Positions 47,752 to 52,092 are shown, counted from the stretch's first letter. The stretch: DNA of 64,000 nt from Cytophagales bacterium (GCA_025056215.1 JANWWC010000001.1:248001-312000), one strand, 5' to 3'. Notes: generated by a model from the sequence alone, not told the origin. Translations and numbers: made by a program.

Positions 47752-47782
47752 TTTGAAGATTGTCAATTTTTCTTTATTTTTA
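47752..47782 (+). promoter_or_regulatory. Promoter of the cobalamin riboswitch operon
   Basis: TTTG at 47752-47755, a 19-base spacer, and TATTTTTA at 47775-47782 (one mismatch to TAnnTTTG). The predicted transcript start, about 47788, coincides with the 5' side of the riboswitch P1 stem. Confidence 0.6.
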
Positions 47783-47786
47783 CAAC

Positions 47787-47963
47787 GCTTTCGGTGTCTA
47801 ATCTCATTCGAGAAGCGACTTAATAGGGAATCATGTGCAAATCATGAGCTGTCCCCGCAACCGTGAATCGTATTTTTTTGAGTTTAGGTCAATACCCTTG
47901 CCACTGTTCTTCGGAATGGGAAGGCGACTTAAATGAACGATAAGCCGGGAGACCTGCCAAAGC
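47787..47963 (+). promoter_or_regulatory. Cobalamin (adenosylcobalamin-type) riboswitch aptamer
   Basis: The conserved core is unmistakable: 'AATAGGGAATCATGTG' from 47822, 'GAGCTGTCCCCGCAACCGTG' from 47846, and the B12 box 'AGCCGGGAGACCTGCC' at 47943-47958. GCTTT at 47787-47791 pairs with AAAGC at 47959-47963 to close P1. Vitamin B12 binding normally lowers expression of the genes downstream, here the four-gene unit 48026-52054. The subclass (adenosyl- versus hydroxo-cobalamin) is inferred from the long peripheral region between 47875 and 47940 and is not certain. Confidence 0.96.
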
Positions 47964-47977
47964 AATATCATTTTAAT

Positions 47978-48000
47978 ACATCTTTCGGGTGAAAAGATGT
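47978..48000 (+). promoter_or_regulatory. Hairpin of the riboswitch expression platform
   Basis: Arms ACATCTTT (47978-47985) and AAAGATGT (47993-48000) form a perfect 8-base stem with loop CGGGTGA. It ends 25 bases before the ATG at 48026 and has no T-tract after it, so control is probably at translation initiation and not by termination. A GTG inside the 3' arm (47999) is therefore an unlikely start codon. Confidence 0.55.
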
Positions 48001-48025
48001 GTTAATAAAAATAATTGTTTTTGCA

Positions 48026-49519
48026 ATGAAGATAATGCAAAGTCGATGGTGGCTTTGGGCAGTTTTTATTTGGTTCGAAGCAAAATCTAATAATCTTTTA
48101 CTGTACGAAATAAATTTAGTGGATGAAAAACAAATTCAAGTAAGTATTTCTTGGGAACATTCTTGGCGCTACGACAGTACGAAGGCTCCTTATAACCATG
48201 ATGCTGTTTGGATTTGGGGCAAAATCCAAGAAAACGGTATTTGGTCATCTCTTCTTTTTAAACGTATTCACACTATCAAAACAGAAACAGTTATTCAGAA
48301 GCCTATCGGTTTTTTGATTCGCCGCAAAAATATTGGTGAAGGAAATATTCAAGATAAAATTTATATCGAATTAGTGAATCCTATTTCAGAGAAAACAAGT
48401 GAAATACGGCTATTCGGCACTGAAATGGTATTTGTTCCAGAAGGAAGTTTTTATGTAGGAGATAGCGTCAGTCAATATACATTAAGAACAAAAGACGGAA
48501 ATCCCTATCAGATTGAAAATGAAGGTACTATTGAAAATCTTTTTGCTAAATCAGAACAAAACAACTTTCATCCTCAATCGCTCACCAGCCAAGCTCCTCA
48601 TTTGCCTATTCCTGCAAAATTTCCGAAGGGTTTTAAAGCTTTTTACTGCATGAAATATGAAATCAGCCAAGAACAGTTTGCTGACTTTCTGAACACACTT
48701 ACGTTTCAACAACAAAAAAAGCATACCGTTTCTTCGCCAGATGCACCTTGGGGAACGCCTGCCTTATACGAATCTTTTAGCCATTCAGCTCGAAACGACA
48801 TTGTGATCCTTCGTTCAGGCATTGAGCCTTGGCTCCCTGCAACTTATGGTTTCCTACAAGAAACCAATGGAAAACATAGAGCCTGCAATTTTCTTCATTG
48901 GCAAAATTTAATGGCTTATCTGGATTGGGCGGGACTGCGCCCTATGACAGAATTAGAATTTGAAAAAGCTTGCTTAGGATTCTCTTCTCCCTTTCCCAGA
49001 CAATTAGCCCATGGTACTGAAGAGTTTGTACGCGCAAAAACAATTTTACAAGACGGAACTCCATTTGAATTCGTTGCAGAGATAGCTACCTTCAGAGCAG
49101 GGGTAGTACTATCGGGTCGCGCGGCTCATGAACAAGGTATTATAGGTCCACTTCGATGTGGGTTTGCTGCTCTTTCTCAACCAAATCGGCTTCAGAGTGG
49201 CACAAGTTACTGGGGTATTTTTGAGCTTAGTGGAAATGTTTGGGAACAAGTCATTAACCTTTCTTCTCACGGCGTTCAGTTTGATGGACAGCATGGCGAT
49301 GGAAACCTTACTGAAGAAGGTTTTTCTGATGCCCTGCCTGCCGAAATTCTTTTAAATGGAAATGGTATCGGCTTGAGAGGAGGGGCATGGAATAGCTTTA
49401 TTAGCGACAATTTGACATATCCTTTCAGAGACCTCGCAATAGCTGATAGATATTATATCTATACTATTCCACAACGCTTAGCAACCGTAGGAGGAAGAGG
49501 AGTTTTAACCTTTGAATAA
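48026..49519 (+). CDS. Secreted formylglycine-generating-enzyme-like (SUMF1) protein, no catalytic Cys
   Basis: 497 residues from the ATG at 48026. Signal peptide about 1-22. An N-terminal beta domain (about 23-130) contains 'QIQVSISWEHSW' and 'YNHDAVWIWGKI'. Then an FGE/SUMF1 domain: 'EMVFVPEGSFYVGD', 'FKAFYCMKYEISQEQFADFL', 'LRPMTELEFEKAC', 'GIFELSGNVWEQV' and 'IGLRGGAWNS'. Active FGE enzymes have a Cys pair near the C-terminus; none is seen here after 'GGAWNS', so it is probably a binding or structural member like GldK/GldJ. It is the first gene after a cobalamin riboswitch, which ties it to B12 status. Two bases separate its stop from the next ATG. Confidence 0.8.
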   Translation: MKIMQSRWWLWAVFIWFEAKSNNLLLYEINLVDEKQIQVSISWEHSWRYDSTKAPYNHDAVWIWGKIQENGIWSSLLFKRIHTIKTETVIQKPIGFLIRRKNIGEGNIQDKIYIELVNPISEKTSEIRLFGTEMVFVPEGSFYVGDSVSQYTLRTKDGNPYQIENEGTIENLFAKSEQNNFHPQSLTSQAPHLPIPAKFPKGFKAFYCMKYEISQEQFADFLNTLTFQQQKKHTVSSPDAPWGTPALYESFSHSARNDIVILRSGIEPWLPATYGFLQETNGKHRACNFLHWQNLMAYLDWAGLRPMTELEFEKACLGFSSPFPRQLAHGTEEFVRAKTILQDGTPFEFVAEIATFRAGVVLSGRAAHEQGIIGPLRCGFAALSQPNRLQSGTSYWGIFELSGNVWEQVINLSSHGVQFDGQHGDGNLTEEGFSDALPAEILLNGNGIGLRGGAWNSFISDNLTYPFRDLAIADRYYIYTIPQRLATVGGRGVLTFE

Positions 49520-49520
49520 A

Positions 49521-49898
49521 ATGAAAAGTATTTTTACAGTAATCTTTTATCTCTTTCCAATTTGTTTGTTTGCGCAAGTTCATGCAGGTGGAAAAGGCGA
49601 TGGATATGCTGCTGTGCATCTTAAAATCAGAGAAATTGCCAGTCTTCAAAAGGAGATCGCACAAAAAATTTGGATTGCACCTAATCCGATTGAAAGTGCG
49701 GCATCTTTTCAAATCAACGGAGTTGAGCAAATCTACAACGCTATTCTGATTAACCCTGTTTCAACGTATACTTATAAACTTCATCTTAAAAAAGAGGGTA
49801 ATTCCTTTTTTGCAGAGCTTCCTGCTTTACCGTCAGGAATTTATTACTTGCAAATCACTTCAGAAGTTTCTGTTATCAAAAAAATTTTTATCCTATGA
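49521..49898 (+). CDS. Small secreted protein with type IX-like C-terminal sorting domain
   Basis: 125 residues from the ATG at 49521. Signal peptide ending 'ICLFAQ', then the glycine motif 'GGKGDGYA', a short helix, and from about residue 52 a domain of the type A sorting form: 'IAPNPIESAASFQI', 'AELPALPSGIYYLQI' and a final 'VIKKIFIL'. That domain normally directs export through the type IX system and attachment to the surface. Nearly all of the mature protein is sorting domain, so it may serve as an anchor or partner and not as an enzyme. Its stop overlaps the next ATG by four bases, and it shares the riboswitch transcript. Confidence 0.7.
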   Translation: MKSIFTVIFYLFPICLFAQVHAGGKGDGYAAVHLKIREIASLQKEIAQKIWIAPNPIESAASFQINGVEQIYNAILINPVSTYTYKLHLKKEGNSFFAELPALPSGIYYLQITSEVSVIKKIFIL

Positions 49899-50959
49899 AA
49901 CTGGTCCAACGTTGCGCGATCGCATGGATTTTTATATGGACAGCCTGCCAGTCATCTGAAGAAAAAATTTCTCCGCAGACCGAGAATAAAGGGAGATTTT
50001 TATACGTACTCAACGAAGGCTTGTTTCAACATAACAATGCTACGCTTACTCGATACAATCTCGATAACAAAATAGTTGAAAAAGATTTTTTCGGAAAAGT
50101 AAATCAACAGCGCTTAGGAGATACAGGCAACGATATTGGCGTTTATGGCAGCAAACTGTACATTCTAGTGACAGTATCTTCTCAAATTTTTGTTACAGAA
50201 AGGTTTTCAGCTAAACTCATTCGACGCATTCCCATTCTAAACGAAAGAAAATTAGCGCGCGAACCGCGTCAAATGGTGTTTCATGAAGGGAAAGTATACG
50301 TTTCTTGCTTTGATGGAAATGTGATTGTTTTAGACACAGCTTCCCTCGAAATTGTTCAAACAGTTTACAGCGGTCGAAATCCTGAGGGAATTGCTATTCA
50401 AAATCAAAAACTTTATGTTGCAAATTCAGGTGGAAAAGATTTTCCTAATTACGATTCTACTCTTACTATTTTTGAACTACCCACTCTGAAATTAGTCAAA
50501 AAAATAACTATCGGTATCAATCCGACTCAAATTGTTTCTACGAATCAAATTCCAAACCGTATTTTTATTTGTTTGAAAGGGAATTACTCCGAAATTCTTC
50601 AAAGATGGATAGCTCTCAATACATTAGCAGATACAGTTCTTTTTTTCTCTTTACAAGACGATCTACAATACCTTGCTGTAGACAACGAACTATGGGGAAT
50701 CAAACAAGAACATAAAAATATCATTGTAAAACGCTATAATCCACTTTCAGGAGATTTAATCAGCAGTTTTTCTCCTTTTGTCGAAGTACAAACTCTTTAC
50801 GGTCTAGACTACATTAAAGAAATAAAAAGCCTTGTTTTTTCAGATGCTCGTAGTTTTGTAAATACGGGTGTTGTCTACTTGTGCACTCAAACAGGAGAGA
50901 TCACCCACTCCTTTGCTGCAGAACTTAATCCAGCGCATTATGCTTTTATAAATTTTTAA
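49895..50959 (+). CDS. BtuG-like beta-propeller surface lipoprotein
   Basis: 354 residues. Lipobox WTAC (C18) followed by QSSEE, an acidic stretch of the kind that marks surface-exported lipoproteins in Bacteroidetes. The mature part matches the YncE/DUF5074 propeller family that includes BtuG of Bacteroides: 'RFLYVLNEGLFQHNNATLT', 'LGDTGNDIGVYGSKLYILV', 'EPRQMVFHEGKVYVSCFDG', 'GRNPEGIAIQNQKLYVANSG' and 'IGINPTQIV'. BtuG binds vitamin B12 at the cell surface and hands it to BtuB. The position behind a cobalamin riboswitch agrees with that job, yet no BtuB is present. Confidence 0.8.
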   Translation: MKLVQRCAIAWIFIWTACQSSEEKISPQTENKGRFLYVLNEGLFQHNNATLTRYNLDNKIVEKDFFGKVNQQRLGDTGNDIGVYGSKLYILVTVSSQIFVTERFSAKLIRRIPILNERKLAREPRQMVFHEGKVYVSCFDGNVIVLDTASLEIVQTVYSGRNPEGIAIQNQKLYVANSGGKDFPNYDSTLTIFELPTLKLVKKITIGINPTQIVSTNQIPNRIFICLKGNYSEILQRWIALNTLADTVLFFSLQDDLQYLAVDNELWGIKQEHKNIIVKRYNPLSGDLISSFSPFVEVQTLYGLDYIKEIKSLVFSDARSFVNTGVVYLCTQTGEITHSFAAELNPAHYAFINF

Positions 50960-50986
50960 ATTCTTTCACTTTTAAAATTTAATCAT

Positions 50987-52054
50987 ATGAAAAACTATCG
51001 TATTGTTCAGTTAGCTTTTTTAGTGTTTTCATTCGGATTTTGGGGTTGTAAAAAAGAAAAATCAGAAAATCCTAAGCCCTTAGTACCCTTTAAGTATCAG
51101 AACGGTGTGTATATCTTATACCAAGGACCGTTCGGAAGTGGAAGCGGCTCTTTAGACTTTTACAGTTTTACGGGAGATTCGCTCATCAGAGATTTATTTG
51201 GAAAAATTGGAAAAACAATTGGAACAGCTGCTTGGGATATGGCAATTGGAGGTACTAAAATGGCGATTACTGTTTCTATGAGCAAGCAACTCAAAATTGT
51301 AGATTTGGTAACCTTTTCTAACGTAGACTCGGTAACTAATCTAGAAAATCCGCGTTATGTAGCTATTTCTGGAGAAAAGGCATACGTATCAGATTGGGGA
51401 GAATACGATGCGGCTTTTAATAGTCCTTCTCCTAAAATTCGCGTTATCAATCTCAATAGCAAGACAATTGTAAAAAACTTTTTGCTTCCTTTTAATATGC
51501 GTCCCGAAGGAATTATTAATGCTAATGGCAAAATATACGTAGCACTTCAAGGCAACATCTATGGAACGACAGTCGGCACAAAAATATACGTTATCAATCC
51601 CAATACTGATGTAATTAGTGATTCTATTACAGTAGGGGGTTATCCATCATTATTCGCTATAGACGCCCGAAATCGCTTATTAGTAACTTGTCAGAAAGAT
51701 TCGGCTATTTATCGCATCAAACTTTCAGACAACACTGTTGAAAACAAAGTACAAGCTCCTACAAAGTTGAGCTTGAACGGTTCCATCGCTACAGGCGGAA
51801 ACGATACCTACGTAATTCTTCAATCTGGCGTTGCACGCTTCGGATTAGATGCTACTACTATCAGTAGCTCATTGCTTATAAGTGGAAATTCTTTTGAAGC
51901 CATCGGATTTGACAGTCGCAATCGCAGAATTTTTATTTCAGATAACGGATATTTTCTAAACAATGGCAAAGTGATGATATACAACATCGATGGCTCGCTT
52001 ATCAAAGAATGGGGAGCTTCAGTAGCTACCCCTCGTGCATTTCTTATGCAATAG
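50987..52054 (+). CDS. Second, divergent BtuG/YncE-like beta-propeller lipoprotein
   Basis: 355 residues. Lipobox FWGC (C21), then a Lys/Glu-rich linker. Propeller repeats are visible as 'WDMAIGGTKMAITVSMSK', 'NPRYVAISGEKAYVSDWGE', 'MRPEGIINANGKIYVALQGN' and 'NPNTDVISDSITVGGYPSLF', the same order of motifs as in the preceding gene but with low identity. It is probably a paralogue from an old duplication, also expected at the outer membrane. It is the last gene of the riboswitch unit, 27 bases after its neighbour and followed by an intrinsic terminator. Ligand inferred to be a corrinoid. Confidence 0.75.
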   Translation: MKNYRIVQLAFLVFSFGFWGCKKEKSENPKPLVPFKYQNGVYILYQGPFGSGSGSLDFYSFTGDSLIRDLFGKIGKTIGTAAWDMAIGGTKMAITVSMSKQLKIVDLVTFSNVDSVTNLENPRYVAISGEKAYVSDWGEYDAAFNSPSPKIRVINLNSKTIVKNFLLPFNMRPEGIINANGKIYVALQGNIYGTTVGTKIYVINPNTDVISDSITVGGYPSLFAIDARNRLLVTCQKDSAIYRIKLSDNTVENKVQAPTKLSLNGSIATGGNDTYVILQSGVARFGLDATTISSSLLISGNSFEAIGFDSRNRRIFISDNGYFLNNGKVMIYNIDGSLIKEWGASVATPRAFLMQ

Positions 52055-52063
52055 TTTTCCGAG

Positions 52064-52092
52064 CTGCACAAGAGTGCAGGTTTTTTATTTTT
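52064..52092 (+). terminator. Intrinsic terminator of the riboswitch operon
   Basis: CTGCAC (52064-52069), loop AAGA, GTGCAG (52074-52079), then G and a T-rich tract (six Ts, A, five Ts). It begins 10 bases after the stop of the second propeller gene and is the clearest intrinsic terminator in the window. Confidence 0.85.

Follow-up and report, generated by a model that had tools for sequence, protein, structure and literature searches.

A cobalamin riboswitch operon encoding two BtuG-type propellers, with an unlinked BtuB, in a Cytophagales bacterium

The capture of vitamin B12 in the Bacteroidota is known almost wholly from gut Bacteroides, in which BtuB and BtuG are encoded next to each other under one riboswitch. 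Adjacency of BtuB and BtuG was reported for 106 of 109 btuB operons in gut Bacteroides (PMC6143338), the lid-and-pore (pedal-bin) model of BtuBG (PMC10404256) provides the mechanism that we apply here by analogy, and cobalamin binding represses riboswitch operons in Bacteroides (PMC12751083). The BtuB-BtuG loci 1-3 of B. thetaiotaomicron (PMC10404256, PMC6143338) share with the operon described here a cobalamin riboswitch, seven-bladed BtuG-type surface lipoproteins and a BtuB in the genome, with propeller A of our operon being closest to BtuG1. Extra surface proteins within riboswitch-controlled B12 operons are a further shared feature, represented in B. thetaiotaomicron by BtuH, BtuJ, BtuK and BtuL, and BtuK1 is likewise a propeller (PMC8941943, PMC12751083).

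The window, the whole stretch of DNA that was analysed, comprised 64 kb of contig C9 (C9:248001-312000) in a 2.83 Mb genome that was 99.5% complete. We consider it likely that the operon in this window makes up the surface-capture half, under B12 control, of a system for corrinoid uptake, in which propeller A would serve a BtuB encoded on another contig, C12.

Organization of the operon and its propellers

The features of the operon were as follows.
47774-47975, + strand: cobalamin riboswitch aptamer RF00174 (98.1 bits, gathering score 31.5; E 2.9e-23; model positions 1-189 of 189)
47976-48001, + strand: hairpin directly 3' of the aptamer, a predicted stem and candidate expression platform
48026-49519, + strand: exported protein resembling formylglycine-generating enzyme (FGE-like; sulfatase-modifying-factor fold, PF03781), ATG start, alternative GTG at 47999
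49521-49898, + strand: small exported protein, ATG at 49521, with signal peptide, N-terminal GGKGDGYA motif and type IX sorting-like C-terminal domain
49895-50959, + strand: propeller A, BtuG1-type lipoprotein by sequence, predicted fold, lipobox and tree
50987-52054, + strand: propeller B, divergent BtuG-type lipoprotein by sequence and predicted fold
52064-52090, + strand: likely terminator, a stem-loop and T tract (ca. -10.6 kcal/mol) 9 bases past the last stop codon

A preliminary description of this DNA had listed a complete cobalamin aptamer, four tightly packed genes and a terminator, with no TonB receptor in the unit, and our analysis bore this out. The aptamer match was full length and was the sole Rfam match within the window, the four genes shared one strand and were separated by 1, -4 and 27 bases (the -4 being an overlap of the small gene with propeller A), and no TonB receptor was present within the riboswitch unit. 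Downstream of the aptamer, the segment 47976-48025 was predicted to fold at ca. -9 kcal/mol, and the hairpin within it included the alternative GTG start of the FGE-like gene. The stem-loop directly after the last stop codon was called a likely terminator by its position, as the region had about as many terminator-like patterns as shuffled sequence (4 versus 3.8). For the promoter named in the preliminary description, a sigma-70 scan of the region returned fewer sites than shuffles and so gave no support; promoters of Bacteroidota differ from sigma-70. By analogy with the Bacteroides operons, B12 would be expected to repress the operon.

Both propellers, previously described as YncE/BtuG-type, were of the BtuG type by sequence and by predicted fold. 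They matched PF16819/DUF5074 at 41.5 (A) and 29.3 bits (B) against a cut-off of 27.2, and were the only two DUF5074 proteins in the genome. The best sequence match of propeller A was BtuG1 (8blw, E 1.2e-46), and the structures most similar to its AlphaFold model (pLDDT 88) were BtuG1 (TM 0.84/0.87) and then other BtuGs, with E. coli YncE far behind. Propeller B matched BtuG3 best (8p97, E 3.5e-12), and the 16 best PDB folds for its model (pLDDT 90) were all BtuG, with TM values of approximately 0.72-0.80, the longer full-length BtuG1 chain excepted. The structure search had been set beforehand as a possible refutation of the BtuG assignment, and it placed both propellers among BtuG structures. 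Identities were low, at about 30-43%. The lipobox cysteine after the signal peptide (Cys18 in propeller A) was invariant in 24 homologues. In the same alignment, propeller B had YQG in place of the near-invariant NEG motif and IGTAAWDM in place of LGDxxQSM. Because both motifs are changed, the ligand of propeller B is less certain than its fold class, and it could bind another ligand, or none. On these sequence and model comparisons we assigned propeller A as BtuG1-like and propeller B as a divergent BtuG-type protein. The work on Bacteroides suggests that the window proteins may bind B12.

An unlinked BtuB and its probable pairing with propeller A

The preliminary description had proposed that a BtuB elsewhere in the genome, or a different uptake route, would complete the surface module, and had suggested searching for btuB, btuC, btuF and other cobalamin riboswitches. 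Queries with seven operonic BtuBs of relatives identified a single clear BtuB at C12:180566-182560 (388 bits), the next TonB receptor matching at 62 bits over the plug region only. This protein carried the TonB plug PF07715 (34.7 bits), and its best NCBIfam model was TonB-B12, at 50.8 bits against a cut-off of 599.7, a score computed for the C12 receptor alone. The Pfam barrel family PF00593 matched 11 receptors in the genome but neither the C12 protein nor the operonic BtuB of a relative (L095). Loss of BtuB from the genome was accordingly rejected, as PF00593 misses such BtuBs and the operonic queries recovered the C12 copy. Two 715-aa TonB receptors (L024, L025) were also considered as BtuB and set aside, their best PDB match being the Cir colicin I receptor and their weak similarity to BtuB being confined to the plug. 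The proposal of riboswitch-controlled corrinoid capture with BtuB elsewhere was supported by the C12 copy, and no evidence was found for a different route.

The genome also encodes a permease that resembles BtuC, its best NCBIfam model although the score is below the cut-off, and one PF01497 periplasmic binding protein. Only two cobalamin riboswitches occurred in the genome, one in the window operon and one preceding metE (L003:9522-12197; from C13:181521 in the genome itself), and none was detected near the C12 BtuB. MetH is also encoded; metE under a riboswitch with metH also present constitutes a B12-sparing arrangement.

In the BtuB tree, the C12 BtuB joined the BtuBs of three loci (L115, L116 and L118) at 100/99 support, and in the BtuG tree propeller A joined the BtuGs of those three loci at 100/100. 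As both group with the same loci, propeller A and the C12 BtuB most likely represent a BtuB-BtuG pair that is now separated, and the trees suggest that they may form a complex. The gene for propeller A is not adjacent to btuB, against the near-universal adjacency in gut Bacteroides. Same-family relatives (G090, G198) retain a riboswitch-btuB-btuG order, which indicated that the split arrangement is derived. Propeller B was placed away from A, weakly beside the BtuG of L121 (82/76), indicating that the two BtuGs have different origins; no obvious cognate BtuB was found for it, and it looks like a BtuG without its BtuB. At L115:7007-8809, right after a riboswitch-BtuB-BtuG operon, we observed a 600-aa T9SS-sorted protein that is a candidate surface accessory.

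A parallel was found in a second family, termed Bernardetiaceae-type from one genome through an identical FGE protein (L182). All 11 genomes of this family had the riboswitch in front of a BtuG standing alone. A BtuB was found in 10 of them, either on a different contig or at a distance of hundreds of kilobases, and no copy had a riboswitch. The window is thus not the only case in which the lid (BtuG) carries the riboswitch and the pore (BtuB) does not, and this recurrence suggests that the split is stable and tolerated, and perhaps selected.

The accessory module in relatives

A scan for FGE-like proteins across 84,980 species, with one genome per species, yielded 80 loci. The order riboswitch-P0-FGE-like-small T9SS protein-BtuB-BtuG was found at L095, L106 and L112, which belong to three genomes from a different family within the order (the small protein not being recognised in the L112 operon), and also at L165, L179 and similar loci; P0 is a T9SS-sorted propeller related to BtuG (hhalign probability 99.6%). 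Riboswitches were called by Rfam, as a strict B12-box text scan missed most. Among 20 high-ranking FGE-like loci, 15 had a riboswitch and 11 had a BtuB on the examined stretch, while none of nine more distant FGE-like control loci had a riboswitch. Several of the loci scored as negative came from short or truncated contigs. In a tree built by a quick method, 21 B12-linked FGE proteins (those with a riboswitch or BtuB at the same locus), including that of the window, fell within one clade of 34 rows (SH-aLRT 98), the other 13 rows having no observed B12 link and several of them coming from Bernardetiaceae-type genomes. A divergent layout was seen at L184:3701-9440, with the riboswitch, P0 and the FGE-like gene on one strand and the small T9SS protein and BtuB on the opposite one.

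The earlier suggestion that the FGE-like and T9SS genes stand in for BtuB was not sustained, as relatives carry them in one operon together with BtuB and BtuG. The expectation that the four-gene order recurs behind riboswitches was borne out in part: the nearest FGE-like relatives do sit behind cobalamin riboswitches, but the exact order occurred in no other genome. The refuting result named beforehand on this point, related genomes with these four genes but no cobalamin riboswitch, did not occur. The two genes are part of a wider and apparently undescribed B12 module. No literature joining formylglycine-generating enzyme, type IX secretion and cobalamin was found within our coverage, many subscription papers lying outside it.

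Plain operon decay could also have produced the window operon, an ancestral operon of the riboswitch-P0-FGE-T9SS-BtuB-BtuG type having lost BtuB and P0 and gained a BtuG, with no special logic and with BtuB expressed constitutively at its new site. The fuller operon in relatives, the riboswitch-btuB-btuG order kept within the same family and the separation of propellers A and B in the tree all fit such a history. Against it, the same split occurred in all ten Bernardetiaceae-type genomes in which BtuB was found, and the four window genes are all intact; we regard decay as a possible but, on balance, doubtful account. Capture or storage of surface corrinoids independently of BtuB, or in service of a different TonB receptor, is unlikely, as the genome has a BtuB whose relatives pair with the relatives of propeller A. 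Such independence would agree with the lack of a BtuB in cis and with the 18 TonB plug matches in the genome, one of them a Cir-like receptor with weak similarity to BtuB; likewise, three loci (L170, L173 and L183) had a riboswitch, P0 and an FGE-like gene with no BtuB on the examined stretch, a hint of BtuB-less versions elsewhere.

The FGE-like protein matched PF03781 at 41.9 bits (cut-off 23.3), and only the middle of the fold showed similarity to solved SUMF1 chains. In SUMF1 the catalytic cysteines sit in the region after the RGG (RGGAW) motif; the window protein has no cysteine there, and a cysteine at this place was seen in just 11 of 67 relatives. Because cysteines are missing from the expected catalytic position, an active enzyme was rejected, a formylglycine-generating function is very unlikely, and the protein is probably a non-catalytic binder. 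A formylglycine-generating or related enzyme modifying the propellers or the small T9SS protein is thus highly improbable despite the above-threshold Pfam match and the strongly conserved downstream partner, the mature small protein of the window also being free of cysteine. Most FGE-like proteins of the group end in GGRGVR or a near variant (local copy at 49484-49519), a conserved C-terminus.

The small window protein scored 18.8 bits against Por_Secre_tail (cut-off 27); its orthologues scored 30.3 (L095, above the cut-off) and 24.0 (L166, below). In B12 operons the partner is short, consisting of a signal peptide, a single conserved GG.G.G motif and a sorting domain. An N-terminal motif of the GGxxDG or GGxGxG type occurred in 59 of 81 genes downstream of FGE-like genes, compared with 16 among the 1056 remaining ORFs at these loci. 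The difference in proportions is large even though the Fisher p of 8e-65 overstates its strength, as the motif was defined once examples had been seen and loci that are related do not count as independent.

Away from B12 operons, the partner frequently carries several repeats. In the genome of the window itself, L162:6106-10386 (C9:682105-686385) encodes two FGE-like paralogues in tandem and, after them, a T9SS-sorted GGxGxG repeat protein, with no B12 context; a PF01497 binding protein lies ca. 5 kb further downstream (C9:691796). The pair of an FGE-like protein and a downstream, often T9SS-sorted protein starting with AQY.GG..DG recurred Bacteroidota-wide (L096-L128, L162, L165-L244), and contigs labelled Cloacimonadota, Lentisphaerae and Ignavibacteriae carried it as well. 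The partner repeats had a conserved cysteine (e.g., NTSCSIPAHFYAYFGG) at many of the loci L189, L191, L204, L219, L226, L238 and the like, although the FGE-like proteins of this group mostly lacked the usual catalytic cysteines. Cysteine modification of the partner was considered and rejected, as conserved cysteines occurred only in some partners outside B12 operons and not in the B12-linked small proteins.

Judged from this context, and speculatively, the FGE-like protein and the small GGxGDGY protein most likely act as a non-catalytic binder and its surface-displayed partner. An extended proposal, which we offer tentatively and think rather unlikely to hold in every part, is that the Bacteroidota possess an undescribed pair, with a non-catalytic FGE fold docking onto a T9SS-displayed N-terminal motif, that one branch was recruited to riboswitch-controlled B12 operons as a surface relay in environmental Bacteroidota, and that in some lineages the lid, but not the pore, has been placed under the riboswitch.

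Proposed control of the lid and comparison with known systems

The riboswitch, the gene identities, the single unlinked BtuB, the matching tree positions and the conserved operon context were established computationally, and on this basis regulation in this bacterium seems to act on the lid and not on the pore. At low intracellular cobalamin, the riboswitch would permit expression of the operon, so that more BtuG lids and accessory surface proteins would be available, with BtuB most likely being produced independently. Propeller A would bind a corrinoid at the surface, act as the lid on the C12 BtuB and pass the corrinoid to it, with the FGE-like and small T9SS pair helping to hold or hand over the ligand. 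The vitamin would then presumably reach the BtuC-like permease and the periplasmic binding protein and serve MetH, MetE being the product of the other riboswitch-controlled gene. Propeller B, its own BtuB apparently gone, may act as a reserve protein for capture or as an alternative lid.

Taken with its relatives, this locus suggests that environmental Bacteroidota have a distinct surface module with T9SS-exported and FGE-like parts. Lineages with cobalamin control on the lid only offer a way to test whether B12 uptake is set by lid supply alone. The operons also provide a likely context for a family of FGE-like proteins whose members would be labelled as enzymes by automatic annotation.

Compared with the BtuBG loci of B. 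thetaiotaomicron, the BtuB of the window's genome is unlinked and has no detectable riboswitch, there are two BtuGs for one BtuB, the BtuH fusion is absent, and FGE-like and T9SS-sorted genes are added. Searches showed no similarity of the FGE-like or small T9SS proteins to BtuH, BtuJ, BtuK or BtuL, and the small protein of the window is apparently T9SS-sorted and not lipidated. With the formylglycine-generating enzyme/SUMF1 fold, the window protein shares the PF03781 domain and detectable similarity to SUMF1 structures, but it lacks the catalytic-region cysteine, has a large N-terminal extension, is predicted to be exported and has a GGxxDG partner gene. The riboswitch-P0-FGE-T9SS-BtuB-BtuG operons of Cytophagales, Chitinophagales and Sphingobacteriales share with the window operon the riboswitch, the FGE-like gene, the small GGxGDGY T9SS protein and BtuG in the same order, whereas the window operon is without P0 and a BtuB in cis and carries two BtuGs.
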